Shown in pieces: positions 616 to 41,954 of a stretch of DNA of 42,077 nucleotides. A program made the translations under genes and the position numbers. Below the pieces are notes generated by a model, which saw nothing but the letters and a program-made list of their open reading frames with translations, had not been told where the DNA came from and did not search any database. The DNA comes from Bacteroides sp. Its GTDB lineage: Bacteria; Bacteroidota; Bacteroidia; Bacteroidales; Bacteroidaceae. Positions within the stretch are counted from its first letter, which is position 1. Every line of letters starts with the position of its first letter. The stretch is from the NCBI GenBank assembly GCA_015060735.1, contig SUXX01000015.1:1-42077 (forward strand). The letters are read 5' to 3'.

Positions 616-1209
616 ATGAATAAAAGAATCACATCACTGATAGTTTGCCTAATTATCTGTTGCCAACTATCGGCCCAAAATTGGGATATCAATACCGTAA
701 AGACCATCAATGATTGGGACATGCATGGCCTCAGCCGTGGCCTGTCACATAGCGGTATCATCCTGCCCGTCGGCATACCAACGGCCATGGGTATCTATGC
801 CTTGATAAAAAAAGACCAACCACTGTTGAAAAATGCCGTTTTCATCGGAACTACCGTCATTGAAGCACTCGGCGTAACATATGGATTGAAATATGCTTTC
901 GACCGCGAACGGCCTTTTGTGAAATACCCTGACAAGATTCACCCTATCAACCCGGAGGATAGCCCTTCTTTTCCCTCGGGACACACAGCTGCGGCCTTTT
1001 CTTTAGCCACTTCACTGAGCATCACCTACCCCAAGTGGTATGTTATTGCCCCATCAGCTGCCTGGGCTTGCGGAGTAGGCCTTGCCCGCATGAATCAAGG
1101 AGTACATTATCCGAGTGATGTACTGGCCGGAGCCGCCATCGGAGTAGGATGCGGATTTGCCAATATATATATCAATCGCTGGCTGAACAAGATTTTATTC
1201 AAAGAATAA
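616..1209 (+). CDS. PAP2 superfamily (type 2 phosphatidic acid phosphatase-like) protein
   Basis: This is a 197-residue membrane-associated phosphatase of the PAP2/vanadium haloperoxidase superfamily, acting on lipid phosphates or pyrophosphates on the periplasmic side. A signal peptide or first membrane helix occupies residues 1-20 (ending SAQ). The three catalytic motifs appear in order: KYAFDRERP (motif 1, K..RP), PSFPSGHTA (motif 2, PSGH) and ARMNQGVHYPSDVLAG (motif 3, R-x5-H-x3-D). The last region (ASAW.. to IYINRW) is hydrophobic. The substrate cannot be read from the sequence; undecaprenyl pyrophosphate recycling and lipid A dephosphorylation are both plausible. The gene stands alone, diverges from sdhC, and its stop codon runs directly into repeat array A. 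Confidence 0.88.
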   Translation: MNKRITSLIVCLIICCQLSAQNWDINTVKTINDWDMHGLSRGLSHSGIILPVGIPTAMGIYALIKKDQPLLKNAVFIGTTVIEALGVTYGLKYAFDRERPFVKYPDKIHPINPEDSPSFPSGHTAAAFSLATSLSITYPKWYVIAPSAAWACGVGLARMNQGVHYPSDVLAGAAIGVGCGFANIYINRWLNKILFKE

Positions 1210-1267
1210 AACGCGAAGACATATTACTATAAACGTGAAGGCGTTTTTTTAAAATGTCTTCACACAT
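1209..1267. repeat. Repeat array A: three 17-bp near-palindromic units
   Basis: Units are AAACGCGAAGACATATT (1209-1225), AAACGTGAAGGCGTTTT (1231-1247) and, inverted, AAAATGTCTTCACACAT (1251-1267). Start-to-start spacing is 22 and 20 bp. The first unit begins in the stop codon of the PAP2 gene. The second ends in seven T residues and could work as a weak terminator. The same unit recurs at 15338-15418, 23807-23910, 39144-39205 and 41874-41954. Confidence 0.7.
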
Positions 1268-1296
1268 AAATAAGCCCTTATAATAAAGCAATTACT

Positions 1297-2160
1297 ATGA
1301 GATTAACCGGAAGAAGAGAAAGTTCGAATGTAGACGACCGCCGACGTAAAGTCGGAGGAAAGAAAACGAGTATGGGCCTAGGAGGTTTGGCAATAGCAGC
1401 TTTGATCGTTTGGCTAATGGGCGGAAACCCACTCAGTGTATTAACACAAGCCGACTTAAGCAGTATAATAACCACACAAAACGGTGGGACCTATGAACCA
1501 ACGGCCGAAGAAGAAGCCTTAGCCAAGTTCTCTAGCCAAATCTTGGCAGGAACCGAAGATGTATGGACACAAGAATTCAGAAAAATGGGAAAGACCTACC
1601 AACCACCTAAGTTGGTATTATTCAGAGGAAGCGTACAGAGCGGGTGTGGAGGAGCCACTTCCTCTACCGGACCTTTTTATTGTTCAGCCGACCAAAGTGT
1701 CTACATCGACCTATCGTTTTTCAGTCAAATGAAGCAGCAATTAGGAGCCGATGGTGACTTTGCCTATGCCTACGTCATTGCCCACGAAGTAGGACATCAT
1801 GTACAATATCTACTAGGAATTCTTGACAACGCTCATCAACAAATGAGCCGGATGAGTGAAAAAGAAAGCAACCGGATGAGTGTACGTCTGGAGCTTCAAG
1901 CCGACTTTTTTGCCGGTATCTGGGCGTATCATGATAACCAAATGTTCAATTCCCTGGAAGATGGCGACATCGAAGAAGGCCTAAACGTAGCTTCCAAAAT
2001 TGGAGATGACTATTTACAAAAGCAAGCTCAAGGCTACACCGTACCTGATGCCTTCAATCACGGAACTTCGGCACAACGCGTCCGCTGGCTAAAGAAAGGA
2101 ATGCAAAGCGGTAATCTGAACGAAGGAGATACATTCAGCCCATCATACAACAACTTATAA
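1297..2160 (+). CDS. Neutral zinc metallopeptidase, YpfJ/KPN_02809 family
   Basis: This 287-residue protein belongs to the putative neutral zinc metallopeptidase family (YpfJ-like). The N-terminus is cytoplasmic and very basic (MRLTGRRESSNVDDRRRKVGGKK). One membrane helix follows at about 26-44, then a periplasmic catalytic domain. The zinc site is visible as AHEVGHHVQ (HExxH), with the downstream acidic ligand probably in the RLELQADFFAG helix (E-x3-D). The CGGATSSTGPFYCSADQSVYIDLSFF segment is a family hallmark. The natural substrate is unknown. The ATG at 1297 gives the normal basic N-terminus. The gene sits alone between repeat array A and a bidirectional terminator. Confidence 0.9.
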   Translation: MRLTGRRESSNVDDRRRKVGGKKTSMGLGGLAIAALIVWLMGGNPLSVLTQADLSSIITTQNGGTYEPTAEEEALAKFSSQILAGTEDVWTQEFRKMGKTYQPPKLVLFRGSVQSGCGGATSSTGPFYCSADQSVYIDLSFFSQMKQQLGADGDFAYAYVIAHEVGHHVQYLLGILDNAHQQMSRMSEKESNRMSVRLELQADFFAGIWAYHDNQMFNSLEDGDIEEGLNVASKIGDDYLQKQAQGYTVPDAFNHGTSAQRVRWLKKGMQSGNLNEGDTFSPSYNNL

Positions 2161-2167
2161 TCATATG

Positions 2168-2193
2168 ATAAGGGGCATCTCAATGCCCCTTAT
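2168..2193. terminator. Bidirectional terminator between convergent genes
   Basis: ATAAGGGGCA (2168-2177) pairs perfectly with TGCCCCTTAT (2184-2193) across a 6-nt loop. It lies in the 36-bp gap between the stop codons of the zinc peptidase (+) and the oxidoreductase (-), so it can serve both. Confidence 0.75.
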
Positions 2194-2196
2194 TCA

Positions 2197-3447
2197 TCAA
2201 AACAATATTGTTCGAGCTTCCTTACGACTACGTTCAGCCTCATAACAAATACGATGACTCTCCACAGAACGCTCAATCGAAGTAGCCAACCCTTCCCGGC
2301 CTTCCCAAAGGGCCTGCACAAAATCAGCTATCAAATTCAAATCAGCCCCAGCATGGAAAGGAGTGCCTGCAATGTCCGAAAAATCATAGATTTCTTCTTT
2401 TGCACCACGGAAGCGTTTCACACGAAGTGTCGTTTCATCTCCGTCTATTTCGCCTTCCGTCAAACAAATATGTGTTTCTCGATTATCCTTTAAAGTAAAC
2501 ACATCCATCGAAAAATTGATAGTAACCTCGCTCTCCATCTCCATGGAAACTATCTGATGATCGACCACATCATTGTCACAACAATAGACACAACGACCAT
2601 ACATTCCTTGATGAAGTTGTTCCTCAATCACCTCATCGATAGTTTTACCTTCCGGTACATCAAAATTCGAAATCCAATCACGACGGTTGCGATACAAATC
2701 AATGGCAGAAAAAGGGCATCGGCTTTCCACCGCACAATCCACACATCTTTCAGCAGAACCTTGAGGAGCATTGGAATGTTTAAACCAACGTAATGAACCG
2801 AAAGAAGTTAATTTACGACAACGAGTCTTTGTCAGCCATAAAAGGAAATCAATGTCATGGCAACATTTGGAAATCAACATCGGATTAGTTTTTGCTTCCT
2901 GACGCCACATTCCACGGACAAATCCATGCGTAGAACGATCCACCCCTACAGCCGAACGATGATTGATAGAAATGATATGCCCCAAATCACCCGAATCCAC
3001 CAATTCCTTAATCTTCACAAAATAAGGGTGATGACGAAGCACATGACAAACAGCCACAAGCACCCCTTTCTGCTTGGCTGCCTCACCAATAGCCACACAT
3101 TCTTCCAACGTTTGGGCTATCGGTTTTTCTAACATGACATGATACCCTGCCTGAATAGCCAACATTGCCGGTTCAAAATGCATATTCTCCGGTGTACAAA
3201 TCATCACGGCATCAGCCATTTTCGTTTGTTGAAAGAAAACCCGATAATCTGTGAAACATTGCGAATCGTTTAAGCCAAAACGGGCTGCTACCTTTCGGCG
3301 ACGGATATCATTCAACTCAACAACCCCGACAAGTTTAACCTTATCGGGATTCCTTCTTACATATTCCAAATATTTATTCGTCCGGTTACCGGCTCCTATC
3401 GCCACGATAGAAACCGGTTCCCGACCGACATTAACTTCTATACTCAT
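2197..3447 (-). CDS. Gfo/Idh/MocA-family oxidoreductase with a cysteine cluster
   Basis: This 416-residue NAD(P)-dependent sugar oxidoreductase is the last gene of the four-gene operon 2197-8910. A Rossmann domain is at residues 10-130 (AIGAGNR nucleotide loop; MLEKP with Lys108). The C-terminal domain carries the catalytic CCHDID (His197). It has no signal peptide, so it is cytoplasmic, unlike its paralog at 6285-7583. Residues 235-290 contain an insert with cysteines C235, C238, C244 and C286, C289, C290, which looks like a structural metal site. By family knowledge these enzymes oxidise or reduce a sugar hydroxyl, often C3. With DUF1080 partners, 3-keto-glycoside metabolism is the best inference. 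Only 3 bp separate its start from the stop of the upstream gene, so they are co-transcribed. Confidence 0.88.
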   Translation of the reverse strand: MSIEVNVGREPVSIVAIGAGNRTNKYLEYVRRNPDKVKLVGVVELNDIRRRKVAARFGLNDSQCFTDYRVFFQQTKMADAVMICTPENMHFEPAMLAIQAGYHVMLEKPIAQTLEECVAIGEAAKQKGVLVAVCHVLRHHPYFVKIKELVDSGDLGHIISINHRSAVGVDRSTHGFVRGMWRQEAKTNPMLISKCCHDIDFLLWLTKTRCRKLTSFGSLRWFKHSNAPQGSAERCVDCAVESRCPFSAIDLYRNRRDWISNFDVPEGKTIDEVIEEQLHQGMYGRCVYCCDNDVVDHQIVSMEMESEVTINFSMDVFTLKDNRETHICLTEGEIDGDETTLRVKRFRGAKEEIYDFSDIAGTPFHAGADLNLIADFVQALWEGREGLATSIERSVESHRICYEAERSRKEARTILF

Positions 3448-3450
3448 TAA

Positions 3451-6261
3451 TTACTTTTTACTCAAGTCTTTAATACGTACATTACGATATTTCAAACCTT
3501 CTCCATGGCCCAAGAATCCGATATGTCCCTTCTTGTTGAAAAGCCCCGGATGATTTTTCTTGTCTACAGTATATGGATTGGTCTTTGAACCATCTTTTGA
3601 CACATTGTGCCCCTTACATGCCTTGCGAATATTACCGTCCAAAATCACTTCACCATTTACAGTAACAGTAATACGATCACCTACGGCACGAATTTCTTCA
3701 ACATTCCATGTACCCAAAGCAGGGAACTTCACTCTCTTGGCCGGAATAATACCATATACCGAACCATGTTGCTGATATTCATGCAGATTCTTGTAAATAG
3801 GAGCATCATGATCCAACACTTGGATTTCCATTCCTTCGTAAGCGGCATCAACACCCATTGGAGTACGAATTCCAATACCGTTGTTCACACCTTCACGCAA
3901 GAAACAGAATTCAAAACGAAGTACGAAATCGCTGTATTCTTTAATAGTGTACAAGTTACCGCTACCTCCATATTGAGCTGATACATAGATGGTACCATCT
4001 TCTTGTGGAGCATAGTTGATAAAGTTACCAGTCCACTTATCCATCGAAACACCATCGAACAAAACTTCGAATCCTTCCTTTTGTTCTTCCGGAGAAAGTT
4101 CAAATTTAACACTTGACTTGCCCATTTCTGCTGGAAGCTTTTCCAACATAGCCTTCAAATCGTCAATGGCATAACCAGCATCAGCATCACCAGTCAATTC
4201 CTGATAACAACCAATTGCCTTTTCCAATGCCTTTCGAACTTCTTCACCACCCAAAGTATCCATATTCTTTGAAACAATCGTACGAACAGCAGCAGCAGCT
4301 TCTGTACGATTGCTCTTTTCTGAGCTATCCATGTATTTTTCAACAAGTGCCAAAGCCGGATAAACCTTCGTTTCACCCAACAAATAAATCAAGCGGTTTT
4401 GTAATTTAACATCCTTGGCTATTTCAAGTGCTTTGCTATACAATTGTACCTTACGAACAGCAGCATCCGATGATTGGTTTACCAAATCAGCATAACGCTT
4501 CAACGCAGTTTGAGCATTAGCAGGATCATTTTGTGCTATTTCATAAAGTGTGCCTACCATTTCTGCATTATTTACAGCCATCAACGCATCAAACGCTGCT
4601 TGCTTATAATCTCCTTTATAACCTTTCATCAATATAGCAATTGCTTTCGAATCACCAATCTGAGCCAATACAGGATAATATAAAGAAGGATTGGAAGATT
4701 TCTCCACAATAGGAGTTACAATAGCCAACTGTTCTGCCACAGGGAGAAAGGCTACCGCACTCTTCAATGCACGCTGAAGTTGAGGTACATGATTCTTATC
4801 GTTTTCAATCAATTGACTCAAACGAACAAAGTCTTTCTTTTGAGCTACACCGGCCAAAGCTTCAAACGCTGCTTCGCTCACCTTTTTGTCCGAAGAAGAC
4901 AATAATGCAAACACTTTATCTGTCGCTTCATCCATTCGACGGATAGAAGCAATCTGCAAAGCAGGAACCTGTGAAGCAGGTGAAGCGTCCAAAGCTTTCA
5001 GTATACCAGCATTTACTTTTCCATTAAAGGTAAGCAATGCAGCCTTAGCAGCATCTGCATGCTTTCCTTCCAACTGAGCAACCAAACCTTCCAAAGCAAT
5101 ATCACCACCAATCTTACCAGCAGCACCTATAGCAGCCAAAGCCACTTCGTCATTGGATGATTTCATAGAAGCAACAACTGTATTGATCTGAGAAACAGCA
5201 TGTTTAGTTCCCAACCAATTCAAAATATCAGCTTTCACAAGCTGTTCTTCTTTACCTTGCAAGACTTTGTTCAAAGACATATAAACGACATCATCAGCAA
5301 AAGGTTCTGAAAGACGCAATGCATTCACTCTGTATTCACGACAAGGATCCTTCATCGCAGCTATCAAATAAGGCATTGCTTTCTTTCCTTCTACTGCAAA
5401 GATAATCTGCAACGCTGCACCACGAATATTTGCCTTGTCTGTTGCTTTCAACAACTTTTTAGCTGCAGCAAGAGCTTCTTTTGGCTGATTTTTGTCAACC
5501 ATGTTCTTTAAAAGTCTTACATACGATGCTGTCACATCACTCGATTCCCAAGCATAATCAACAGCTTTGGCAGCAGTTCCCAACACCTTTACTGAAGAAG
5601 CTGTTCCTACAATACCTAAAGCATGATAAACTGCTTTTAATGTTTCACCCTCTGCTGTTTTTGCCCAATTCAGCAAAACAGGTTCAGCAGCAGCCATTTT
5701 TTTTGCACCTGCTGCATAGGCCAACACCTTACAAGGTTCTGCACTTTTCTGCATGAGGTTTAACAAAACATCTTCAGTTCCTGGTGTTGCTACCAGCCCG
5801 TTTACCGCCCATTCTCCCAAATAGTCATCTTTGATATACTTTACAAAGACCGGTGCATCCTCGGCTTTTGCACAACGCTGCAATAAAGTCAACAAAAATG
5901 CTTTATTCGGATTATCTGTACATTTATCAATGGCCAAAGCTAATCCTTTTCTAACATTAGCAGCTTCTGCGTCCCTGCCAGGAGCTGAGATATAAGCTAC
6001 TAAACCATTCAAGGCATATTCCATTACAGCATTCTTACCTTTATCAGCAGGAACCAACATAGCTGCAATTTCAGTTACGGCATCCGTTCCAACGCCGGCC
6101 AATTCGGCCATCACCTGATTATAGGTTTCCTGTTTAGGTGCAGGAAGTTGGGCCATTGCGTCAGCTATTACCGTTGCAGTTGTACGCTGACGACCGTCTT
6201 GTGCCATCATGCTCCATGGCAAAATCACCATAAGAGCCAATATCATAAATATTCTTTTCAT
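3451..6261 (-). CDS. HEAT-repeat protein with C-terminal DUF1080 (3-keto-disaccharide hydrolase) domain
   Basis: This 936-residue exported protein is the third operon gene. A signal peptide covers residues 1-20 (MKRIFMILALMVILPWSMMAQ). Residues of about 40-720 are alanine/leucine-rich helical repeats of HEAT/ARM type (for example ALEGLVAQLEGKHADAAKAALL), a scaffold that usually binds partners. The C-terminus (about 729-936) is a DUF1080/LamG-like beta-sandwich starting EGFEVLFDGVSMDKW, with YEGMEIQVLDHDAP and GHIGFLGHGEGLKYRNVRIKDL. DUF1080 (PF06439) is now called 3-keto-disaccharide hydrolase, because members cleave glycosides already oxidised at C3. HEAT plus DUF1080 in one chain suggests a docked periplasmic hydrolase, which is inference. 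Start: the ATG at 6261 gives a clean signal peptide. Confidence 0.88.
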   Translation of the reverse strand: MKRIFMILALMVILPWSMMAQDGRQRTTATVIADAMAQLPAPKQETYNQVMAELAGVGTDAVTEIAAMLVPADKGKNAVMEYALNGLVAYISAPGRDAEAANVRKGLALAIDKCTDNPNKAFLLTLLQRCAKAEDAPVFVKYIKDDYLGEWAVNGLVATPGTEDVLLNLMQKSAEPCKVLAYAAGAKKMAAAEPVLLNWAKTAEGETLKAVYHALGIVGTASSVKVLGTAAKAVDYAWESSDVTASYVRLLKNMVDKNQPKEALAAAKKLLKATDKANIRGAALQIIFAVEGKKAMPYLIAAMKDPCREYRVNALRLSEPFADDVVYMSLNKVLQGKEEQLVKADILNWLGTKHAVSQINTVVASMKSSNDEVALAAIGAAGKIGGDIALEGLVAQLEGKHADAAKAALLTFNGKVNAGILKALDASPASQVPALQIASIRRMDEATDKVFALLSSSDKKVSEAAFEALAGVAQKKDFVRLSQLIENDKNHVPQLQRALKSAVAFLPVAEQLAIVTPIVEKSSNPSLYYPVLAQIGDSKAIAILMKGYKGDYKQAAFDALMAVNNAEMVGTLYEIAQNDPANAQTALKRYADLVNQSSDAAVRKVQLYSKALEIAKDVKLQNRLIYLLGETKVYPALALVEKYMDSSEKSNRTEAAAAVRTIVSKNMDTLGGEEVRKALEKAIGCYQELTGDADAGYAIDDLKAMLEKLPAEMGKSSVKFELSPEEQKEGFEVLFDGVSMDKWTGNFINYAPQEDGTIYVSAQYGGSGNLYTIKEYSDFVLRFEFCFLREGVNNGIGIRTPMGVDAAYEGMEIQVLDHDAPIYKNLHEYQQHGSVYGIIPAKRVKFPALGTWNVEEIRAVGDRITVTVNGEVILDGNIRKACKGHNVSKDGSKTNPYTVDKKNHPGLFNKKGHIGFLGHGEGLKYRNVRIKDLSKK

Positions 6262-6284
6262 AATTCTATTTTTTCAGCGTTAGA

Positions 6285-7583
6285 TTATAACTTCCAAGGA
6301 CCTCTCATCGGTTGGTCAATCAATCGATTGGCTGCCTCATCATTGATAAATTGTTGTGCAACCGGGTCAAAGTGCAAGGTACGATTCAAACGAAGTGCAC
6401 ATAAGCCCATATTCACAATATTGGCACTACGATGTCCATTCATTTCGTTCAATGCAAACAATTCACGGTTCTTAATACACTTGATGAAATCTGTATTCTG
6501 AGGTTCCGGATCGGGTAACTCAGCAATAATACTCATAATATCCGGTGCGGGTTTGCCATCCAATTCACATTCAAATCCCTTGAAGACCTTACCCTTCGGC
6601 CCTTCGATATATGGTACTTTACCTGCACTTTCAAAGCCTTCGCCTTCCAGAATAATTTGACAACCATCTTCGTAAGTATAAGTAACCTTACGCCAAATAC
6701 CAATAGCATCCGGATGCTGTTGAGGTGCATCAACTTCTACTTTAATCGGATTGGTATTATCTTTACCCAAAATATACTGAACAGGGTCAATATAGTGTTG
6801 TCCCATATCACCCAATCCACCTCCATCATAATCCCAATATCCGCGGAAAGTTTGATGAACACGATGAGAATTGTAAGGCTTATAAGGTGCCGGACCTAAC
6901 CACATATCATAATCTAACTCTGCCGGCACTGGTTCAGGAGTGAGGTTTTCCTTACCAACCCAAAAGAATTTCCATGTAAAACCGGTAGCACCCGAAATTC
7001 GTACTTTTAAAGGCCAACCTAACAGACCGCTATCTACTAATTTCTTCAACGGTTCTACTTTTGTTCCTAAGCCATAAAAGTTATCTTCGAAACGGAACCA
7101 AGTATTCAAACGGAAAATTCGATTATTCTGTTTCACGGCCTCAACCACACGTTTACCTTCACCAATAGTACGCGTCATCGGTTTTTCACACCAAATATCT
7201 TTTCCAGCCTTAGCGGCTTCAATAGCCATTAATGCATGCCAATGAGGAGGTGTAGCAATATGTACTACATCCACATTCGGATCTTTAATTAAATCACGGA
7301 AATCATGATAAGTTTGTACCGTTTCTTTGAGTTTTGTTTTCGCTAAATCAACAGCTTTCTGTACATGGTTCTTATCAACATCACATACAGCCACCAAACG
7401 ACATCTTTCATCACTCGTAAAATGGTAACTACTTCTACCAATTCCACCAACTCCAATAATACCTTTAGTCAATTGATCACTCGGAGCAACATGATTAGGA
7501 CCACCCAGCACCTTACTTGGCACGATGGAAAAGAGAGCCAAACTACTTGCTCCCTTTAAAAAGTCTCTTCTGTTAATTCCCAT
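6285..7583 (-). CDS. Gfo/Idh/MocA-family oxidoreductase with Tat signal
   Basis: This 432-residue protein is the second operon gene. The N-terminus MGINRRDFLKGASSLALFSIVPSKVLGG is a twin-arginine signal (RRDFLK followed by a hydrophobic stretch), so it is exported folded with its nucleotide bound. The Rossmann fold follows (GIIGVGGIGRSSY; VAVCDVD; IATPPHWH; CEKP with the family Lys). The C-terminal substrate domain includes GGLGDMGQHYIDPVQYILG, holding the catalytic His region. Known relatives in gut Bacteroides with this layout oxidise glycosides at C3 in the periplasm using tightly bound NAD. Spacings of 34 bp to the gene before and 23 bp to the gene after indicate one transcript. The specific substrate cannot be read. 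Confidence 0.88.
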   Translation of the reverse strand: MGINRRDFLKGASSLALFSIVPSKVLGGPNHVAPSDQLTKGIIGVGGIGRSSYHFTSDERCRLVAVCDVDKNHVQKAVDLAKTKLKETVQTYHDFRDLIKDPNVDVVHIATPPHWHALMAIEAAKAGKDIWCEKPMTRTIGEGKRVVEAVKQNNRIFRLNTWFRFEDNFYGLGTKVEPLKKLVDSGLLGWPLKVRISGATGFTWKFFWVGKENLTPEPVPAELDYDMWLGPAPYKPYNSHRVHQTFRGYWDYDGGGLGDMGQHYIDPVQYILGKDNTNPIKVEVDAPQQHPDAIGIWRKVTYTYEDGCQIILEGEGFESAGKVPYIEGPKGKVFKGFECELDGKPAPDIMSIIAELPDPEPQNTDFIKCIKNRELFALNEMNGHRSANIVNMGLCALRLNRTLHFDPVAQQFINDEAANRLIDQPMRGPWKL

Positions 7584-7617
7584 AGTATATACTTTTTAAG
7601 AATCCTTTTTCCCTTTT

Positions 7618-15315: not shown

Positions 15316-15418
15316 TTCCCCGAAGATGTTCTTTCAAAAACATAAAAGCGTTTCCACCGAAACGCGAAGACAAAATTAAAAAACGCCTTCGCATATCCAC
15401 AGATATGCCTACAAATCA
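15316..15418. repeat. Repeat array B: four clear and one degenerate 17-bp units
   Basis: Units: a degenerate one at 15316-15332 (CGAAGATGTT core); AAACATAAAAGCGTTTC (15338-15354, 13 of 17 to consensus); AAACGCGAAGACAAAAT (15360-15376); inverted AAAACGCCTTCGCATAT (15380-15396); inverted GATATGCCTACAAATCA (15402-15418). Spacings are 22, 22, 20 and 22 bp. The array fills the divergent gap between the antiporter and GH95 genes, just upstream of both promoters. Confidence 0.65.
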
Positions 15419-22480: not shown

Positions 22481-23707
22481 TTACTTCTTTTTCAAGAAAG
22501 GCTGCTTGTTCAAATAAGTCAACGAACGCCAAAGCCATTCCAATGGGCCGTATTGGAAATGGTTCAGCCAAACCTTACATATTATCACTTGCAAAAGATA
22601 AATGGCCAAGCCCAACAAAAGGGATTCAGCCGGTTGGAAGGGCCCAAAGGTAGCTCCCCATGCCCACATCGCAAACAGGCAAGCACCGATGATGTTCTGA
22701 CTGACATAATTGGTCAGCCCCATCCTACCGTAAGGAGCCAGCCAATCCAACACATGTCCAACACCCTTCAACTGATATAACACAATGAATGCCATCGTTA
22801 TCACCGAGGATGCCAGCATCTGCTTCACATCAGTGAGTGTCTGCAGGGTCATCGAAGCCACAGAAGGTATTTCTCCTTCTTGCATCACATTCCAAATGGA
22901 TTCTTGAGGTGGGAATGAATCTATCAGGAAGTTGCATAAGCAAAGGAAGGCGGTAAATGTGCCCAATAATATCCAGTTACGACGCTTCTTCAGATGAACA
23001 GTCTCGAAGAAACGGATACGGCCTACCACCAAACCTAAAATAAAGATAGCCATCGTGACATATCCACGAGTCCGCTTCACAAACTGGAAATTCAACTTCC
23101 AAGCATTTGCCCGGGTCATGGTGTGTTCCAAAGACTCCACGTATGTCGTTTCGGTATTTCGTGGGCTTCCTGTATCTGCATCCACAAAAGCAATTTCCTG
23201 TACGGGAGTTCCCGTCAGTTCATTATAACCCATCATCACATATTGAGGAACACCGGTCAACAACAATACAGCAATCAAAATCAATACCCAATTCTTGAAA
23301 CGATTCAAAAAAAGCAGAATGACTCCAAAAAATGCATAAATGGAAAGAATATCTTGCGAATAAAAACAATTACCTAAGATGCCTATTCCGAACAAGATGA
23401 CCATTCGCCACAAGAAACGGCCTTCGAAACGTACTCCCTTTTGGGCAGCCCTATCCATTTGAATAAAGAAACTCATACCAAACAAGAATGCGAAGATGTT
23501 GATGAATTTCCCCGACAACATTGTCCGTACAAACCAATTTGCCCCTTCATTCCATCCGGACAGAAAAGGTTCATGTGCTCCATAAGGCTCTGCAGAACCA
23601 TAACTATAATGTTGGCTCATGTGCACCAACAACACTCCAAGAAGTGCGAAACCACGCAAGGCATCAATCACCGTAATGCGTCGGTTCAGAATAGTGTTTT
23701 CCTTCAT
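22481..23707 (-). CDS. DUF418 (YeiB-like) membrane protein, paralog 2
   Basis: This 408-residue integral membrane protein belongs to the DUF418/YeiB family. It opens with ITVIDALRGFALLGVLLVHMSQHY, the RG-x-A-L-x-G-x-x-x-V signature shared with other acyltransferase-like membrane families. About ten hydrophobic segments follow, and the DUF418 core ends YGPLEWLWRSLTYLNKQPFL. Function is unknown; transport or acyl transfer are guesses. The start is ATG 23707 rather than 29 codons upstream, because the -7 box at 23735-23742 lies in the longer frame. It is a clear paralog of the gene at 24224-25471; ends and membrane segments are nearly identical and a loop near residues 170-215 has diverged. Confidence 0.85.
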   Translation of the reverse strand: MKENTILNRRITVIDALRGFALLGVLLVHMSQHYSYGSAEPYGAHEPFLSGWNEGANWFVRTMLSGKFINIFAFLFGMSFFIQMDRAAQKGVRFEGRFLWRMVILFGIGILGNCFYSQDILSIYAFFGVILLFLNRFKNWVLILIAVLLLTGVPQYVMMGYNELTGTPVQEIAFVDADTGSPRNTETTYVESLEHTMTRANAWKLNFQFVKRTRGYVTMAIFILGLVVGRIRFFETVHLKKRRNWILLGTFTAFLCLCNFLIDSFPPQESIWNVMQEGEIPSVASMTLQTLTDVKQMLASSVITMAFIVLYQLKGVGHVLDWLAPYGRMGLTNYVSQNIIGACLFAMWAWGATFGPFQPAESLLLGLAIYLLQVIICKVWLNHFQYGPLEWLWRSLTYLNKQPFLKKK

Positions 23708-23734
23708 AATTTTAAGATTACATTTATTTAGGCA

Positions 23735-23742
23735 CAAAAATA
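23735..23742 (-). promoter_or_regulatory. -7 box of the second DUF418 gene
   Basis: On the minus strand TATTTTTG matches TAnnTTTG, 28 bp before the ATG at 23707. No good -33 box is seen, so activation may be needed. Confidence 0.45.
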
Positions 23743-23806
23743 AATAAATTTCTTTAAAATGAAAATATTTATTTACAGAAGATGAAATGTGCAAACATAA
23801 TCTTTT

Positions 23807-23910
23807 AAGACATCTTGAGCTTTTTCAAAAACATCAAGGCAAATAAAAAAAATGACAAGGCGTTTTGCCTAAAACCCCAAAGGGTTTTAATCCAAATGCC
23901 AAGTCATTTT
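23807..23910. repeat. Repeat array C: five 17-bp units at 21-22 bp steps
   Basis: Units: inverted AAGACATCTTGAGCTTT (23807-23823), AAACATCAAGGCAAATA (23829-23845), AAATGACAAGGCGTTTT (23850-23866), AAACCCCAAAGGGTTTT (23872-23888) and AAATGCCAAGTCATTTT (23894-23910). Steps are 22, 21, 22 and 22 bp. The fourth unit is a hairpin in which the inner pairs changed together. The outer units also pair with each other (AAAATGAC at 23849-23856 with GTCATTTT at 23903-23910), making a branched fold possible. Confidence 0.7.
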
Positions 23911-23921
23911 AAATCAAACAA

Positions 23922-23988
23922 AAATCTGCCACCGAATCATCGCAAAATATCAGCGACTTAAAAGGCCTGTTGCAGATGTGGCAGATTT
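23922..23988. repeat. 11-bp perfect inverted repeat with 45-bp spacer
   Basis: AAATCTGCCAC (23922-23932) is the exact reverse complement of GTGGCAGATTT (23978-23988). A further TGCAGAT precedes the right arm. The right arm ends 2 bp before the stop codon of the aldo/keto reductase remnant. It could be that lost gene's terminator or a regulator site. Confidence 0.45.
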
Positions 23989-23990
23989 AA

Positions 23991-24185
23991 TCAATCCACT
24001 TGTCTTGCAAAAACAAATCGTTCCAATTGTTCCAACGACATGTTATAGAATCGTTTCTCTTCATTCAGCGAACGCATTGTTGCCATATCTTCGTCGTCAA
24101 GAGAGAAGTCAAATATCGAGATATTTTCTTTTATCCATTCCGGATTGGTGTTGCCTGGGATGACCGAAAAACCTTCCTGGATATC
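23991..24185 (-). pseudogene. 3' remnant of an aldo/keto reductase gene
   Basis: The minus strand codes for DIQEGFSVIPGNTNPEWIKENISIFDFSL, continuing DDEDMATMRSLNEEKRFYNMS and QLERFVFARQVD, then TGA at 23991. This is the C-terminal tail of an NADP-dependent aldo/keto reductase of the diketogulonate reductase type: FSVIPGNTNP is the NADP-phosphate-binding loop and IFDFSLDDEDM the following helix. Upstream in frame there is an immediate stop (24186-24188) and no catalytic Asp, Tyr, Lys or His. Only about 64 of the usual 270-330 codons remain. The frame is otherwise undamaged, so the truncation looks recent. It lies 38 bp downstream of one DUF418 gene and upstream of its paralog. Confidence 0.8.
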
Positions 24186-24223
24186 TCATACGTAAATTAT
24201 TAATTATACTTTTCCCCTTCTCT

Positions 24224-25471
24224 TCAAACTTTCAAGAACGGTTGCTTCTTAAAGTAAGTCAACGAACGCCACAACCATTCTAACGGACCATATTGGAAAT
24301 AATTCAACCATACTTTACAAACAATCACTTGCACCAGATAAACGAGCAGGCCTAACAGCATAACTTCGGCTGCTTGCCAGGCCCCAAAAGTAGCTCCATA
24401 AGCCCACATAGCAAACAGGATGGCCCCGACAATACTCTGCGAGACATAATTGGTGAGACCCATACGTCCATAAGGGGCCAATTGACCTAGCACTCTATTG
24501 AAGCCTCGATATTGATACAGAACAATGAAAACCATAGCCAAAACCGCTGAAGAAAGAACCATACTGAAATCGGACAAGGCTTGGACAGTCAAGGCAGAAA
24601 CCGATGGCACTCCTCCGTTCTGCATTGAACGCCACAACGATTCCTGAGTAGGGAAAAGCGTAATCAGCCAATTAGATAAAAGTAAACCGGCAACAAAAAC
24701 ACCCAAAAGCTTCCAATTACGACGTTGCCTTATATGGACGGTTTCAAAAAAACGGGTGCGTCCAACAACCAACCCCAAGATGAAAATAGCCAATGTAATA
24801 TATCCTCGATTACCCCCGATAAACTGATAATTAAGCTTACCCATCGTTCCATCGGTCAAATTATCTTTCGCTACTTCCCAAAAGGTAGGTGTAGGACGTT
24901 CTTCAGGTGCTACCAATTGGCTGGGACGTTGCGGACGATTCTCTGACGATACCACTTGTTCTGTTGCCGGAGGAGCGGTCAATTGGTTATAACCAATCAT
25001 TATCCATCTGGGAGCACCTGCCAATAACAATACAGCAATCAAAATCAAAATCCAATTCTTAAAACGATTTAAGAACAGCATAATGATACCAAATACCGCA
25101 TAAATAGAAAGAATGTCGCCTGAATAAAAACTGGTGCCAAACAAACCTATGACGAATAAGAGAATCATTCTCCACAAAAAACGCCCTCCAAAGTTCACTC
25201 CTTTCTGGGCAGCCCTATCCATCTGAATAAAGAAACTCATGCCAAAAAGAAACGCAAAGATATTAATAAACCGTCCTAACATGACACTCCAAATCAACCA
25301 GGAAGCTGTTTCATCCCATTCAGCAAAAATTGCCTCGTGTGGTTCGAAAGGTCCCACCGAACGATAACTATAATGTTGGTTCATGTGTACCAATATCACT
25401 CCTAACAAAGCAAAACCACGTAAAGCATCAATCACCGTAATACGTGGTTTGGAAATCAAATTCTCTTTCAT
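24224..25471 (-). CDS. DUF418 (YeiB-like) membrane protein, paralog 1
   Basis: This 415-residue integral membrane protein opens with RITVIDALRGFALLGVILVHMNQHYSYR and ends YGPLEWLWRSLTYFKKQPFLKV, almost the same as the paralog at 22481-23707. About ten membrane segments are seen. A proline-rich periplasmic or cytoplasmic loop (VVSSENRPQRPSQLVAPEERPTP) is unlike the paralog. It starts 19 bp after the AraC regulator's stop, with no promoter or terminator between, so the two are one transcript. That suggests the regulator controls its own operon. Function is unknown. Confidence 0.85.
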   Translation of the reverse strand: MKENLISKPRITVIDALRGFALLGVILVHMNQHYSYRSVGPFEPHEAIFAEWDETASWLIWSVMLGRFINIFAFLFGMSFFIQMDRAAQKGVNFGGRFLWRMILLFVIGLFGTSFYSGDILSIYAVFGIIMLFLNRFKNWILILIAVLLLAGAPRWIMIGYNQLTAPPATEQVVSSENRPQRPSQLVAPEERPTPTFWEVAKDNLTDGTMGKLNYQFIGGNRGYITLAIFILGLVVGRTRFFETVHIRQRRNWKLLGVFVAGLLLSNWLITLFPTQESLWRSMQNGGVPSVSALTVQALSDFSMVLSSAVLAMVFIVLYQYRGFNRVLGQLAPYGRMGLTNYVSQSIVGAILFAMWAYGATFGAWQAAEVMLLGLLVYLVQVIVCKVWLNYFQYGPLEWLWRSLTYFKKQPFLKV

Positions 25472-37447: not shown

Positions 37448-37495
37448 TAGTGTCATTAAGAGACAAAAGCAAGTAACAATTTAAAACGAAAGGCT

Positions 37496-37894
37496 ATGAA
37501 AACACAAAACCTCTTTAAAGCAATGCTTTTATTGGCAATGGTATTCATTGCTAATACAACTGTGATGGTTGCTAACGACAACGACCCGGATAAAAACAAT
37601 TTTATCCGCAATGTAGAAGAAGTGGATGGGCTTATTATGAGCGAAACCATCTTTAAAATGGAGAGTGGTATGCTTACCAACTACATGAAACATACCTATA
37701 AATACGATGCCGACAAACAACGTATCGAAGACGAAATACAAAAATGGAATGCCGTCAGCAATAGCTGGGATAATGACATGCGTCTCCAATATAGCTATAA
37801 TGACAATAGCATAACCACTGAGTATTACAAATGGAACAAAAAGAAAAAAACATATGTGATTGTCCCTGAAATGACTATCACGATGGACAAATAA
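37496..37894 (+). CDS. DUF3836-type small exported protein
   Basis: This 132-residue exported protein has a signal peptide (MKTQNLFKAMLLLAMVFIANTTVMVA). The mature part has DUF3836 features: HTYKYDADKQRIEDEIQKWNAVSNSWDNDMRLQYSYNDNSITTEYYKWNKKKKTYV. These YxYD and W-rich repeats resemble short Rhs-like or YD-type strands. Such genes are common and often multicopy in Bacteroides and Prevotella, but their role is unknown. It has its own promoter and terminator. Confidence 0.75.
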   Translation: MKTQNLFKAMLLLAMVFIANTTVMVANDNDPDKNNFIRNVEEVDGLIMSETIFKMESGMLTNYMKHTYKYDADKQRIEDEIQKWNAVSNSWDNDMRLQYSYNDNSITTEYYKWNKKKKTYVIVPEMTITMDK

Positions 37895-37917
37895 AAAATC
37901 ATTTTCTCTCTAAAAGG

Positions 37918-37947
37918 AAAAGGGCAACCGCGAGGCTGTCCTTTTTT
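37918..37947 (+). terminator. Terminator after the DUF3836 gene
   Basis: AAAAGGGCAACC (37918-37929) pairs with GGCTGTCCTTTT (37934-37945), with one mismatch and one G-U pair, across a GCGA tetraloop. It ends in a T run. Confidence 0.8.
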
Positions 37948-37982
37948 ATTTCTCATTTACTGAAAGAATGAAAAAGAATAAG

Positions 37983-37990
37983 TATCTTTG
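37983..37990 (+). promoter_or_regulatory. -7 box of ychF
   Basis: TATCTTTG matches TAnnTTTG 38 bp before the ATG at 38029. The leader would be about 32 nt. Confidence 0.55.
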
Positions 37991-38028
37991 CACCCGAATA
38001 ATCAGGTAATAATCAAAAACAAATAAAT

Positions 38029-39132
38029 ATGGCATTAAAAGCTGGTATTGTAGGCCTTCCTAACGTGGGAAAATCTACTCTATTCAATTGTCTGTCTAGT
38101 GCAAAAGCACAGAGTGCGAACTATCCTTTCTGTACCATCGATGCCCAGCAAGGACAAATCTCCGTACCCGATGAAAGACTGAACAAACTCGCCGAATTGG
38201 TAAAGCCGGGACGCATCGTTCCCGCCACTTGCGACATTGTAGACATCGCAGGACTCGTAAAAGGTGCCAGCCAAGGCGAAGGCTTGGGCAACCAGTTCTT
38301 GGGAAATATCCGTGAAACCGATGCAATCATTCATGTATTGCGTTGCTTCGACAATGATAATATCGTCCACGTGGATGGCTCTGTAAACCCTGTTCGCGAC
38401 AAGGAAATCATCGATGCAGAACTTCAGTTGAAGGACCTCGAAACCGTGGAAAACCGTATCAAGCGTGTGGAAAAACAAGCCCGTGTGGGTGGCGACAAGC
38501 AAGCCAAAATCGAATACGATGTCTTGGTAGCTTATCGGGATGTTCTCCTCCAAGGCAAGTCGGCACGTACCGTGACCTTCGAAACCGAAGACGAACAGGC
38601 TGCTGCCAAAGGACTTTTCCTCCTCACTACCAAGCCGGTACTTTATGTATGTAATGTAGACGACACCTCAGCTGCTAACGGAAATCCTTACGTGGAAGCC
38701 GTTCGCGAAGCCATCAAGGACGAAGAAGCTGAACTCTTGATTATCAGTGCACAGACAGAAGCTGACATCGCCGAATTGGAAAGCTACGAAGAAAAACAGA
38801 TGTTCCTGGAAGACATGGGGTTGAAGGAGTCGGGGTGCGACCGCCTCATCAAGGCTATCTACAAGCTTTTGAACCTCGAAACCTTCATCACCGCCGGTGA
38901 AATGGAAGTCAAGGCTTGGACATATCGTAAGGGTTGGAAGGCTCCTCAATGTGCCGGTGTCATCCATACGGACTTCGAGAAGGGCTTTATCCGTGCCGAA
39001 GTCATCAAGTACGACGACTACATCAAGTATGGCTCGGAAGCAGCCGTGAAGGAAGCCGGAAAGATGGGTGTGGAAGGCAAGGAATATGTCGTTCAGGACG
39101 GCGACATCATGCACTTCCGATTCAATGTATAA
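38029..39132 (+). CDS. ychF: Redox-regulated ATPase YchF (Obg-like GTPase family)
   Basis: YchF is a universally conserved P-loop NTPase that prefers ATP, binds ribosomes and affects stress responses. The 367 residues match family length. The G1 loop is GLPNVGKSTLFN, switch I NYPFCTI, G3 DIAGLVKGAS. The NKXD motif is replaced by NVDD (CNVDDTS), as is usual in YchF and the reason for ATP preference. A coiled-coil insert (about 130-200) and a C-terminal TGS domain (ITAGEMEVKAWTYRKGWKAPQCAGVIHTDFEKGFIRAEV) complete it. It converges with mutS across repeat array D. Confidence 0.96.
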   Translation: MALKAGIVGLPNVGKSTLFNCLSSAKAQSANYPFCTIDAQQGQISVPDERLNKLAELVKPGRIVPATCDIVDIAGLVKGASQGEGLGNQFLGNIRETDAIIHVLRCFDNDNIVHVDGSVNPVRDKEIIDAELQLKDLETVENRIKRVEKQARVGGDKQAKIEYDVLVAYRDVLLQGKSARTVTFETEDEQAAAKGLFLLTTKPVLYVCNVDDTSAANGNPYVEAVREAIKDEEAELLIISAQTEADIAELESYEEKQMFLEDMGLKESGCDRLIKAIYKLLNLETFITAGEMEVKAWTYRKGWKAPQCAGVIHTDFEKGFIRAEVIKYDDYIKYGSEAAVKEAGKMGVEGKEYVVQDGDIMHFRFNV

Positions 39133-39143
39133 TCATCAAATTA

Positions 39144-39205
39144 AAAACGCCTTGACGTTTGACATCAAACGCCAAGGCGTTTTGCTTTAAACGTCAAGGC
39201 ATTTT
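39144..39205. repeat. Repeat array D: three 17-bp units, also a likely bidirectional terminator
   Basis: Units: inverted AAAACGCCTTGACGTTT (39144-39160), AAACGCCAAGGCGTTTT (39167-39183) and AAACGTCAAGGCATTTT (39189-39205). Steps are 23 and 22 bp. The first two pair with each other as an 11-bp perfect outer stem and a 6-bp inner stem, with an A-C mismatch between, around an ACAT loop. T runs follow on both strands. The array fills the 71-bp gap between the convergent ychF and mutS, and the last unit overlaps the mutS stop codon. Confidence 0.75.
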
Positions 39206-41819
39206 ATTTCCCCCTCACAATCTTCTTGATGTCATTCAATTTATTCAAAGCTTCAAGCGGTGTAAGATTGTTCACATCCAGATTCAGGATTTCATCCCGT
39301 ACCTGACAAAGGACAGGGTCATCCAACTGGAAGAAACTGAGCTGCATTCCATCGCGTTTAGAGGCAATTTCGGCCGTGGGCTTGGATGAAATGCCTTGTT
39401 GGCGATTGTCCGTCTCCAACTGGTTCAAAATGGTATTAGCACGCTTCACAATGCTCTTGGGCATACCTGCCAACTTCGCCACGTGGATACCGAACGAATG
39501 TTCACTTCCTCCCCTTTCGAGCTTACGAAGGAAGATAACCTTGCCATCCACTTCCTTCACCGACACATTGTAATTCTTGATACGTTTGAACGACTTCTCC
39601 ATCTCGTTCAGCTCGTGATAGTGGGTGGCAAAAAGCGTGCGGGCTTTCGCCTTGGGATGCTCATGGATGTGCTCTACAATGGCCCAAGCGATGGAGATAC
39701 CGTCGTAAGTGGAAGTGCCTCGTCCCAATTCATCGAAGAGAACCAAACTCCGTGGCGAAAGATTGTTCAGAATATCGGCAGCCTCGTTCATTTCCACCAT
39801 GAAGGTCGATTCGCCCAACGAAATGTTGTCGCTTGCCCCTACACGGGTGAAAATCTTGTCTACCAAGCCGATACGGGCACTTTCGGCCGGCACAAAACAA
39901 CCGATTTGAGCCAAGAGGGTAATGAGTGCCGTCTGACGGAGCAAAGCCGACTTACCCGCCATGTTCGGTCCTGTGATGATGATGATTTGTTGGTTATCGG
40001 CATCCAGGAGGACGTCGTTGGCGATGTACTTCTCTCCTACCGGTAATTGCTTCTCGATGACCGGATGGCGACCCTGACGGATGTCTATCACATCGCTGTC
40101 CTCGATGACCGGACGGATGTACTTGTTCTCTCTCGCCACATTGGCAAAGGCCAAGAGGCAATCCAGACGGGCGATTTGAGTGGCATTGATTTGGATGGCT
40201 GGAATGTATTCCGCCAAGTCCATCACCAAATCATTGTATAACCTGGTTTCGAGCGAAAGAATCTTGTCCTCGGCACCGAGAATCTTTTCTTCGTATTCCT
40301 TCAGTTCTTGCGTAATGTAGCGTTCGGCATTGACCAATGTCTGCTTGCGAATCCATTCAGCAGGCACCTTATCCTTATGAGTATTACGCACTTCAATGTA
40401 ATAACCGAACACGTTATTGTAAGCAATCTTCAAGCTTGGAATCTCCGTGCGTTCGCTTTCGCGTTGTTGCATCTGGAGGAGGTAATCCTTGCCCGAATAG
40501 GCTATTTGACGAAGTTCATCCAGCTCCGCATTGATGCCATCGGCTATCACCCCACCCTTGTTGACCAACAAAGGAGGGTCGTTCTTTATTTCTCGGGCAA
40601 TGCGGTTACGGATACTTTCACACAAGTTCAAGTGCTCGCCAATGCGTCGGAGGCTTTCGTTTTCGGCATTGAGACAAGCATTCTTAATCGGTTCGATGGC
40701 TTGAAGAGCCACTTTGAGTTGTACCACCTCACGAGGCGATATTCTCCCTACGGCAGCCTTGGAAACGATACGCTCCAAGTCACCTATCAGATGAAGCTTC
40801 TCTTCGATAAAGTCCTTGAAATCAGGTTCCCGGAAGAAGAATTCCACTACATCGAGGCGTTCGTTGATGGGCTTTTCGCCCTTCAACGGGAAGACCACCC
40901 AACGCTTCAACAAACGGGCTCCCATCGGGCTGATAGTCTTGTCAATCACCCCCAAAAGGCTACTTCCTCCATCGTTCATGCTTCCAAGAAGTTCCAGGCT
41001 TCGCACCGTGAATTTATCCAAACGCACATAGCGGTCTTCCTCGATGCGAGAAAGCGAAGTGATGTGGCCGATTTGGTAATGTTGCGTCATCTCCAAGTAT
41101 TGAAGAATGGCACCCGATGCCACTACCCCATTCTTGAGATGCTCCACACCGAAGCCCTTCAAGTTCTTGGTTTCGAAGTGCTTCAAGAGCTTCTCACGGG
41201 AAGATGTTTCGTTGAATACCCAATCTTCCAATTCAAACGTAAAGAACTTGCTTCCGAAATTCCCTTCGAACATACCTCGTTTGCCACGTTCAAAGAGCAC
41301 TTCCTTCGGGGCGAAATTGTTCAAGAGTTTGTCAATATAATCAAACGGTCCTTCGGCGGTCAGGAACTCCCCTGTCGAGATGTCGAGAAAAGCCACACCA
41401 CACGATGACTTGCCGAAATGGACAGCTGCCAGGAAGTTGTTTTCCTTATAAGACAGGACATTATCATTGATGGCTACCCCCGGTGTCACCAATTCCGTGA
41501 TGCCTCGCTTTACCAACTTCTTGGTAAGCTTCGGGTCTTCCAACTGGTCGCAGATAGCCACACGCTTCCCTGCCCGAATCAACTTCGGCAAATACGTATC
41601 AAGGGCATGGAAAGGAAAGCCTGCCATTTCCACATGCTTGGCTTGTCCGTTGGCACGTTTGGTAAGCGTAATCCCCAGGATATTGGCCGCCGTAATGGCA
41701 TCTTCCGAATAGGTTTCATAGAAGTCACCACACCGGAAAAGCATCACCGCATCGGGATGTTTCTCTTTCAACTCGAAGTATTGCTTCATCATGGGGGTCA
41801 TTACGACATCTTTTGCCAC
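39204..41819 (-). CDS. mutS: DNA mismatch repair protein MutS
   Basis: MutS recognises mismatches and recruits MutL. The 871-residue protein starts with the mismatch-binding domain (CGDFYETY, whose F-Y-E contacts the mispair). A connector, lever and clamp follow, then the ATPase domain with Walker [15 protein letters not shown], Walker [17 protein letters not shown] and the FATHYHEL signature. At the C-terminus QLSFF (826-830) is a beta-clamp-binding-like word. The start is a GTG at 41819; a purine-rich AAAGGA lies 8 nt upstream. An ATG six codons in is the alternative. The promoter at 41863-41897 lies in repeat array E. Confidence 0.96.
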
Positions 41820-41862
41820 GGTCTTGTTCCTTTCTTTTATGATGGGTTATTTTATCGGGTAG

Positions 41863-41897
41863 CAAAGATAAGAAAAGGCAAAGACATTTTAGACAAA
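41863..41897 (-). promoter_or_regulatory. Promoter of mutS
   Basis: The minus strand has TATCTTTG (41863-41870) and TTTG (41894-41897), a 23-bp spacer. The -33 element lies inside a repeat unit of array E. The leader would be about 35 nt. Confidence 0.5.
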
Positions 41898-41954
41898 ACG
41901 CCTTCACCTTTTTCAAATATGCCTTCGTGTTTTTTTTAATTCGCCTTCGCGTAT
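41874..41954. repeat. Repeat array E: four 17-bp units
   Basis: Units: AAAGGCAAAGACATTTT (41874-41890), inverted AAAACGCCTTCACCTTT (41895-41911), inverted AATATGCCTTCGTGTTT (41916-41932) and inverted AATTCGCCTTCGCGTAT (41938-41954). Steps are 21, 21 and 22 bp. It lies between the mutS promoter and the tRNA-Gln terminator, and the first two units overlap the mutS promoter spacer and -33 box. Confidence 0.7.

Follow-up and report, generated by a model that had tools for sequence, protein, structure and literature searches.

Dispersed 22-bp-phased intergenic arrays in Phocaeicola as candidate protein-binding boundary elements

We found that short intergenic arrays in the window, the whole 42,077-nucleotide stretch of DNA analysed here, belong to a family of sites held in a fixed 22-bp phase and dispersed over genomes of the genus Phocaeicola. 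Our leading reading, a tentative one given slightly less than even weight, is that the arrays are phase-locked sites for a putative dimeric DNA-binding protein at transcription-unit boundaries, and that their outer units act as bidirectional terminators. The frame, the phase, the pattern of constraint, the location bias, the outer hairpins and the absence of a Y1 transposase (21/22 array-rich genomes) were all computed from the sequences.

The constant part of the unit is AAACG-N6-CGTTT, with half-sites alternating every 11 bp around a 6-bp core that is variable and largely genome-specific; several different cores stand side by side in one array, and units occur in both orientations. The initial annotation had described a 17-bp unit, AAACGCC-AA-GGCGTTT-like, repeated every ~22 bp. 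The repeat length holds and the AAACG and CGTTT ends are constant, but the core varies and the period is better given as 22 = 2 × 11 bp of alternating half-sites. Across the 232 arrays of the loci analysed, 740 of 782 steps measured 22 bp, with 36 of 21 bp, three of 23 bp and three of 20 bp, as counted by an array finder that admits only 20–23-bp steps. In a test free of this finder, which covered 600 kb from a relative, every one of the 33 pairs of exact AAACGN6CGTTT sites with a distance of 1–50 bp was separated by 22 or 44 bp. In 600 kb from G007, one of two related species (G007 and G023) compared below, like half-sites recurred at 22, 44, 66 and 88 bp and opposite half-sites at 11, 33 and 55 bp. 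Reversed sequence yielded no arrays with our first matrix and six with a stricter, end-only matrix, versus 162 unique real arrays. Constant half-sites, fixed phase and spacers free in sequence are the features expected of a phased protein array, and the earlier suggestion that spacing outweighs orientation is supported; judged from sequence, the inner units are most consistent with a phased protein-binding site, also proposed earlier.

In the window, four arrays were called by the unit matrix with step chaining. Array A (1209–1267; two full units at 1209 and 1231 and a weaker third) begins at the stop codon that closes an undecaprenyl-diphosphatase-like gene (616–1209, +; an assignment scoring under the families' curated cut-offs), and a YpfJ-type zinc metallopeptidase gene (1297–2160, +) lies 3' of it. 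Array C (23808–23909; clear units at 23850, 23872 and 23894, with two weaker ones ahead of these) lies between two genes, both on the − strand, whose DUF418-like assignment is below the curated cut-off. Array D (39145–39204), three units at steps of exactly 22 bp, fills nearly the whole gap between convergent ychF (38029–39132, +, stop at 39132; TIGR00092, 489.4 bits), at whose 3' side it sits, and mutS (39204–41819, −, low end at 39204; NF003810, 1034.6 bits), which is the 3' neighbour of array D and the 5' neighbour of array E. Array E (41874–41954; four units at steps of 22, 21 and 22 bp, three with the end-only matrix) lies between mutS and the upstream tRNA-Gln gene (41999–42070, −). The end-only matrix called the identical four arrays, with fewer units in three, and called none in 20 dinucleotide-shuffled windows at the same threshold. 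A fifth array in the initial annotation, B (15316–15418), was called by neither matrix: its phase is roughly kept and its sequence decayed, leaving, within 15338–15418, one full unit at 15338, a fair one at 15381 and fragments in 22/21-bp phase (matrix scores of 15.1 and 9.0 for these two units; below 0 at 15316, 15360 and 15403), with divergent genes on either side, a calcium/sodium antiporter (−) and a large ORF (+). The start-to-start steps reported earlier were correct within 1 bp, and the accompanying statement that all copies lie outside genes was true for most: a crude ORF caller placed 10 of 232 arrays within an ORF >150 aa.

The window's genome held 113 near-matches to one unit (58 + 55) in 2.45 Mb, and the reversed control held none. 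Of 61 Phocaeicola genomes, 39 had matches to a sequence model of the arrays, 22 of them at least 60; the remaining 22 had no match, so the function of the arrays is dispensable or replaceable. The genome scan that the initial annotation had proposed thus revealed more units than expected, and a spacing peak at 22 bp, in this genome and its relatives, and the claim of a phased array family survives it. A source gene next to the longest arrays (in G362, with 15 and 11 units; also one region each in G746 and G542) was considered and rejected, since by eye their neighbours shared no gene.

Arrays favoured 3' ends and convergent junctions. Those of G007 and G023 lay in 37 convergent, 60 tandem and 14 divergent gaps, compared with 26, 80 and 52, respectively, for array-free gaps sampled from G007 (convergent excess, p = 0.002; divergent deficit, p = 1.6 × 10^-4). 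In a divergent gap neither gene needs a terminator; arrays in such gaps were nevertheless conserved between species at several loci (L244/L279, L221/L163), and 10 of the 14 divergent cases were flanked on both sides by ORFs of at least 150 aa.

These divergent arrays speak against the rival that survives best, which we regard as rather unlikely: that the arrays are bidirectional intrinsic terminators only, RNA hairpins and T tracts lengthened by duplication, with no protein. This rival accounts for the 3' location and for the array ends, which A/T tracts adjoin and where outer unit pairs were more stable than inner pairs (ΔG −13.9/−14.0 versus −10.6; 157 arrays, p = 4 × 10^-14), with the highest hairpin stability in convergent gaps. 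The arrangement typical of intrinsic terminators, a stable hairpin and then a T tract where a gene ends, was present: of 120 3' ends bearing an array, 88% had a terminator-like hairpin and T tract (E ≤ −8) running through it, and other terminators there were rare (4% ahead of the array, 7% beyond it); of 117 array-free 3' ends, 39% had such a hairpin and tract. Outer pairs were also the best paired in most sets; inner neighbours, however, paired worse than chance. On the sense strand, A.C mismatches exceeded G.U pairs (278 versus 198, p = 3 × 10^-4), the opposite of what is expected for a selected sense RNA hairpin, and no longer T tract was found on the sense side (37 versus 31; T8 versus A8, p = 0.40), so neither test indicated RNA-level selection on that strand. 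When whole arrays were folded, the sense MFE did not improve on that of arrays whose units had been permuted and flipped (p = 0.82); the antisense MFE was slightly better (p = 0.005). Outer hairpins and tracts of divergent arrays did not differ from the rest (p = 0.81 and p = 0.26), and these ends therefore belong to the element rather than to its place. The terminator idea of the initial annotation is partly right, given the better outer hairpins, the T/A tracts beside them and their frequent position at 3' ends. A known RNA family was discarded, as no array matched Rfam at gathering score: tRNA was the window's only match, and the loci gave seven weak matches in five loci, none near its gathering score.

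Comparison of 37 orthologous arrays in G007 and G023 revealed per-site differences of 0.028 in the frame (a figure bearing the mark of unit recognition that relied partly on the frame), 0.14–0.18 in the core and 0.355 in the spacer (279/786 sites). If hairpins alone mattered, inner units should not be constrained as much as outer ones, yet frame differences affected 27/980 inner and 21/740 outer sites (core, 105/588 and 63/444). Spacing was likewise fixed, with spacer length altered in 2 of 116 steps (array flanks had 0.021 indel events per site, ~0.47 per 22 bp), whereas the loop of a terminator should tolerate ±1. Among 325 frame deviations, 303 were uncompensated within the unit and 30 were compensated by a neighbouring unit (~21 for random units); 201 were CG-step transitions, after which G.U pairing would still be possible in one of the RNA strands. 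The other 124 showed neighbour compensation in 8 cases versus 1.7 expected at random, a small excess indicating that pairing has some bearing on the frame and favouring the terminator-only reading, as do coordinated double changes in adjacent units (for example, L137/L149). The frame is preserved mostly as sequence rather than as a pairing stem, and an RNA-only hairpin chain is weakened by the mostly uncompensated changes, the fixed spacing and the A.C excess. Fast whole-unit turnover could also account for a clean frame and phase, under weaker selection than these figures imply; a comparison of concerted evolution over 13 locus pairs, from which nine were dropped as not clearly sharing a 3' end, gave a mixed result in the clearly matched sets (L031/L131/L160 and L033/L119/L156). 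Palindromic Bacteroidetes RNA candidates have been predicted as terminators (PMC8040213); these resemble our arrays in having a hairpin beside a T tract past stop codons, but the arrays are multi-unit, phase-locked and two-sided with constrained inner units.

For the favoured protein-bound arrays, we infer a protein, its cooperative binding, termination and insulation. The frame recurs with different cores in two further genera of the same family, and in a single genome from another family, which speaks for this reading. A putative Bacteroidales dimer would read the half-site AAACG in alternating orientation every 11 bp, each 16-bp unit would be one dyad, and neighbouring dimers would lie 22 bp apart. 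At transcription-unit boundaries, mainly past stop codons and between convergent genes, the arrays would form boundaries in both directions, at which transcription is stopped or insulated, and the outermost unit pairs might contribute a hairpin and an outward T tract per side, making both ends intrinsic terminators.

An extragenic mobile repeat of the REP/BIME type, dispersed by some enzyme and without dedicated function, is an improbable explanation. Its attractions are the patchy number of matches within the genus (none to >100 per genome), the largely genome-specific cores, the extragenic, 3'-biased location and one aligned case (L280/L295) in which the array is absent from the relative; extragenic imperfect palindromes in high-copy, regularly spaced arrays are indeed what we observed. 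Frame and phase are under constraint, however, and 48 of 57 G023 arrays have a same-place partner in G007. A RAYT-type transposase domain (Y1_Tnp, PF01797) occurred in 6 of 61 genomes, among them four of the 22 without model matches and only one, G062 (two copies), of the 22 with at least 60; with 21 of 22 array-rich genomes lacking it and G062 the exception, we discarded RAYT/REP mobilisation, and the earlier candidate of a REP-like family, in the usual sense, is not supported. Flanks 4–24 nt out showed no complementarity (z = −0.6, 162 arrays), which also removes a MITE with terminal repeats or a stem closing around the array. Only two stretches of a viral collection held the two-unit pattern, which counts against mobility and led us to discard a phage origin. 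REP/BIMEs with RAYT (PMC2817692) are extragenic short palindromes for which functions in termination and in the binding of proteins have been suggested, and share high copy, arrays and alternating orientation with ours; the arrays differ in their fixed 22-bp phase, spacers free in sequence, largely genome-specific core in a constant frame, lack of RAYT in 21/22 rich genomes and lack of a GTAG tag at the unit end. The palindrome ends are AAAC/GTTT, with neither a GTAG nor a CGTC tag there. CGTC-tagged REPs, reported in five phyla including Bacteroidetes (PMC3733652), are likewise short palindromes with no dedicated transposase, but they are mainly head-to-head dimers with CCA-like tails rather than tandem 22-bp arrays, and the CGTC that many of our units contain is internal and not constant.

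Very improbable is a tyrosine-type recombinase site with AAACG/CGTTT inverted arms and a 6-bp crossover core, at which exchange between equal-core units would shuffle 22-bp modules and homogenise cores. Inverted arms that are conserved on either side of a variable 6-bp centre, largely genome-specific cores, units facing both ways and unequal unit number in 24 of 37 orthologous arrays (six versus one at L269/L302) would suit it, but the arms are just 5 bp, 11-bp arms would make neighbouring sites overlap, different cores coexist within one array, and dispersed sites would rearrange chromosomes, yet the order around orthologous arrays was preserved in the 3-kb loci compared. CRISPR was discarded, as it had been earlier, since the spacers are 6 bp rather than unique ~30-bp sequences and the units vary.

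Plasmid iterons and ParR/parC-type arrays have phased repeats of ~11 or 22 bp bound by dimers; unlike these, the present arrays are genome-dispersed and, at the loci read, tied to no single rep or par gene. BrickBuilt of Porphyromonas gingivalis, a 23-nt tandem repeat likewise dispersed in a Bacteroidales genome, is a minisatellite within a MITE that has terminal inverted repeats (PMC4596501); our arrays show no such repeats, and its consensus, AGAYCATARTATCCTCTCRTRTG, is unrelated to the array unit. Among the open-access papers listed by our literature searches, no description of the array family was found.

To our knowledge, few chromosome-organising or termination factors have been described for gut Bacteroidales; the fixed 22-bp phase, the inner-unit constraint and the gene-end and convergent bias point to a candidate DNA-binding boundary factor. 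The arrays could serve as two-way insulators for Bacteroides engineering and may exemplify tiny dispersed bacterial sites acquiring genome-specific cores. Possible, if doubtful, is a conserved Bacteroidales nucleoprotein boundary system in which, across genera, one protein family would read AAACG every 11 bp where transcription units end, and genome-specific cores, homogenised in each genome, would make up a constant-frame, variable-core code that marks the boundaries of genes.

A palindromic word recurs in five gaps of the window, which the initial annotation took as five arrays. A unit matrix combined with step chaining called four of them (1209-1267, 23808-23909, 39145-39204 and 41874-41954), and a second, end-only matrix called the identical four while finding no arrays in 20 dinucleotide-shuffled windows. 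The fifth gap, 15316-15418, holds one full unit, one fair unit and in-phase fragments, which a decayed array explains best. The array at 39145-39204 fills nearly the whole gap between the ychF and mutS stops. The array at 23808-23909 is flanked by two adjacent DUF418 (YeiB-like) paralogues (22481-25471; matches below the curated cut-off). Several arrays of the window's genome (window 23923-23943; loci L003, L005, L011, L015, L017 and L019) adjoin another dispersed repeat, which has AATCTGCCAC / GTGGCAGATT-like ends and is perhaps a mobile element in its own right. At two loci, L009 and L026, a hairpin, AAGACCTTGAAG...TCAAGGTCTT, lies just beyond the array, followed in L009 by repeated TCTAGCATGA motifs and in L026 soon by the contig end.

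The layout is constant: AAACG, a core of six variable bases, CGTTT and a six-base spacer, so that half-site orientation alternates every 11 bp. Across 600 kb from G007, which with G023 makes up a pair of related species, AAACG-to-CGTTT offsets peak at 11, 33 and 55 on both sides. For half-sites of like orientation the peaks fall at 22, 44, 66 and 88, plus a minor one at 21. Exact-frame unit pairs up to 50 bp apart are spaced by 22 or 44 bp in 33 of 33 cases. Across 232 arrays, called by a finder that accepts only steps of 20-23 bp, 740 of 782 start-to-start steps are 22 bp (21 in 36, 23 in 3 and 20 in 3); on reversed sequence the finder returned 6 arrays versus 162 unique real ones. Unit number is typical of the genome: 4 units in 26/26 arrays of Candidatus Phocaeicola excrementigallinarum, 4-5 in 52/61 of G007 and 5-6 in 52/57 of G023. 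Leading cores vary between the sets: CCTTGA in P. excrementigallinarum (54/116), CAAGTG in G007 and G023 together (70/249) and CCAAGG in the window's own genome (23/79, with CCTTGA second at 16). The first spacer base is A in 0-9% of cases in either reading direction.

The window's own genome, 81% complete at 2.45 Mb in 96 contigs, bore out the predicted excess of units: allowing at most 2 mismatches, the 16-mer AAACGCCAAGGCGTTT gave 58 + 55 matches versus 0 for the reversed pattern, although its near-palindromy means that some places are counted on both strands. A scan of named species genomes, which may omit records very near the window's genome, found the two-unit pattern in 40 stretches of five genomes: P. 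excrementigallinarum, uncultured Bacteroides sp. (SI.B36) and three ruminant-gut Bacteroidaceae MAGs. At one compared locus (L058 versus L172), G008, which belongs to the window's genus, is 100% identical to P. excrementigallinarum over 3082 bp, and for this reason we treat the genus as Phocaeicola. A less strict pattern, AAACGN6CGTTT-N6-AAACGN6CGTTT, occurs in 24 of 61 genus genomes, and read backwards has 0 matches in the same 61. R1, a model of 4-unit arrays that uses sequence alone, matches 39/61 at E<=0.001; counting both strands, at least 60 matches are listed in 22 genomes, 1-25 in 17 and none in 22. In an order-wide sample of 393 genomes the two-unit pattern was found only in the window's genome and in G362, from another family; a family-wide sample of 399 yielded 18, of which 13 belong to the window's genus and five to two other genera. 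These five have different cores (for example, TACCTC in G746 and CAGGCT in G542), and G746 carries 5-unit and 7-unit arrays in 22-bp phase.

G007 and G023 have 37 arrays in common by owner gene, with owner proteins 95% identical. Frame differences affect 21/740 sites in outer units and 27/980 in inner units, core differences 63/444 and 105/588, and spacer differences 279/786. Frame and core rates exclude unit pairs with more than 5 differing positions, and the spacer rate pairs with more than 4; the figure for the frame is a minimum, because divergent pairs are excluded and units are recognised by their frame. Spacer length changed in 2 of 116 consecutive steps; the 60-nt flanks contain 80 indel events over 3744 aligned sites, around 0.47 per 22 bp. 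The half-site offsets and the exact-frame pair spacing support the phase independently. Frame deviations number 325 among 839 units (mixed group 'oth' excluded); 303 of them lack compensation inside the unit, and neighbouring units compensate 30, versus about 21 for random units. On balance, the frame resembles a sequence recognised in duplex DNA more than it does a stem. Two cautions apply: C-to-T or G-to-A changes at the two CG steps make up 201 of the 325 and would still allow G.U pairing in one of the two RNA strands, and neighbours compensate 8 of the remaining 124 versus 1.7 expected. The CG-step transitions have a CpG-like decay pattern.

Gene context, assigned with a simple ORF finder, places G007 and G023 arrays in 60 tandem, 37 convergent and 14 divergent gaps, compared with 80, 26 and 52 among sampled array-free G007 gaps of at least 100 bp (p=0.002 for the excess in convergent gaps and p=1.6e-4 for the deficit in divergent ones). 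Arrays in tandem gaps lie a median of 46.5 nt beyond the upstream stop and 121.5 nt before the next start, closer to the stop in 44/60. Against a permutation null, pairing tends to be stronger between outer units (pairs 1:2 and n-1:n) and weaker between inner ones; single tests span z=3.1 to -2.7, with several of the outer pairs flat. Folding energies are -13.9 and -14.0 for outer pairs versus -10.6 for inner pairs (157 arrays of at least 4 units, 'oth' excluded; p=4e-14), and outer pairs are most stable in convergent gaps (-15.4 versus -13.1 in tandem gaps, p=8e-4). At 120 array-bearing 3' ends, a hairpin plus T tract (E<=-8) runs through the array in 88%, precedes it in 4% (partly a length effect, the stretch before the array being short) and falls in the following 80 nt in 7%; at array-free 3' ends of G007, from a different genome set, it occurs within 110 nt in 39% of 117, and at 5' controls in 20% of 143. 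However, several observations speak against the arrays being terminators alone. A.C mismatches exceed G.U on the sense strand (278 versus 198), T tracts showed no sense bias at the arrays tested, and constraint is as strong on inner as on outer units. Divergent-gap arrays have equally good ends, and some are conserved between species (L244/L279 and L221/L163), although a few other divergent calls rest on doubtful ORFs. These misfits led us to a two-part reading, in which the phased array would be bound by a putative protein and its ends might also terminate.

The called unit number differs in 24 of the 37 orthologous arrays. Of the 57 G023 arrays, 48 correspond in position to a G007 array, 5 were unplaced and 4 lie opposite G007 sequence without a called array. 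Three of these four were aligned: six units face one at the identical spot (L269/L302), an array with about 60 nt of flank is absent from G007 (L280/L295), and the third (L265/L301) says nothing on array loss, the G007 side having a CRISPR-like array (about 47-nt repeat with unique spacers, near 6742 of G007:C1:2550001-2560000). Adjacent identical units are uncommon in five sets (7/109, 3/92, 2/109, 1/54 and 12/133), arguing against simple tandem duplication as the main source of units. P. excrementigallinarum arrays share 3/22 sites with G007 or G023 and at most 1/16 with the window's genome. At two closely checked shared sites (L031/L131/L160 and L033/L119/L156), mean core distance is 2.9-3.3 of 10 sites, versus 3.0-3.4 for random arrays of the two sets and 1.9-2.1 within the first set. 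Nearest-unit distances from L031 (0.50 to L160, 1.50 to L131) are below the random value of about 1.95; L033 is not closer (2.00 versus 1.66). Genome-specific cores thus suggest concerted evolution, for which the two shared sites give a mixed result and no proof.

By place, palindromy and array form, REP/BIME elements are the nearest known kind. Y1_Tnp, the RAYT-type transposase domain, was found in 6/61 genus genomes, including 1/22 array-rich (G062) and 4/22 array-free ones, and the units examined lack the REP/BIME tag described in PMC2817692 and PMC3733652. BrickBuilt elements have their own different consensus and terminal repeats, unlike the arrays, and Rfam has no match for the family. 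A published survey reports palindromic Bacteroidetes candidates predicted as terminators (PMC8040213). The family is placed among extragenic palindromic repeats, and its most probable role is that of a putative phased nucleoprotein boundary; the main support for the boundary is the fixed phase together with the constrained inner units.

On the 4.03-Mb G007 contig C1, arrays are denser in the chromosome half around the GC-skew terminus (guesses 1.75-1.95 Mb), with 40-43 of 59 array positions among the matches listed (p=0.009-0.0006 by terminus guess); a plain uniformity test on these 59 positions was not significant (p=0.17). Arrays reach 11-15 units in G362 and one viral-labelled contig (L311 8018-8341, L312 8254-8487 and L309 11525-11782), and a variant unit, AAAGGAACGTTCCTTT, occurs in L311 and L309 with the phase kept.
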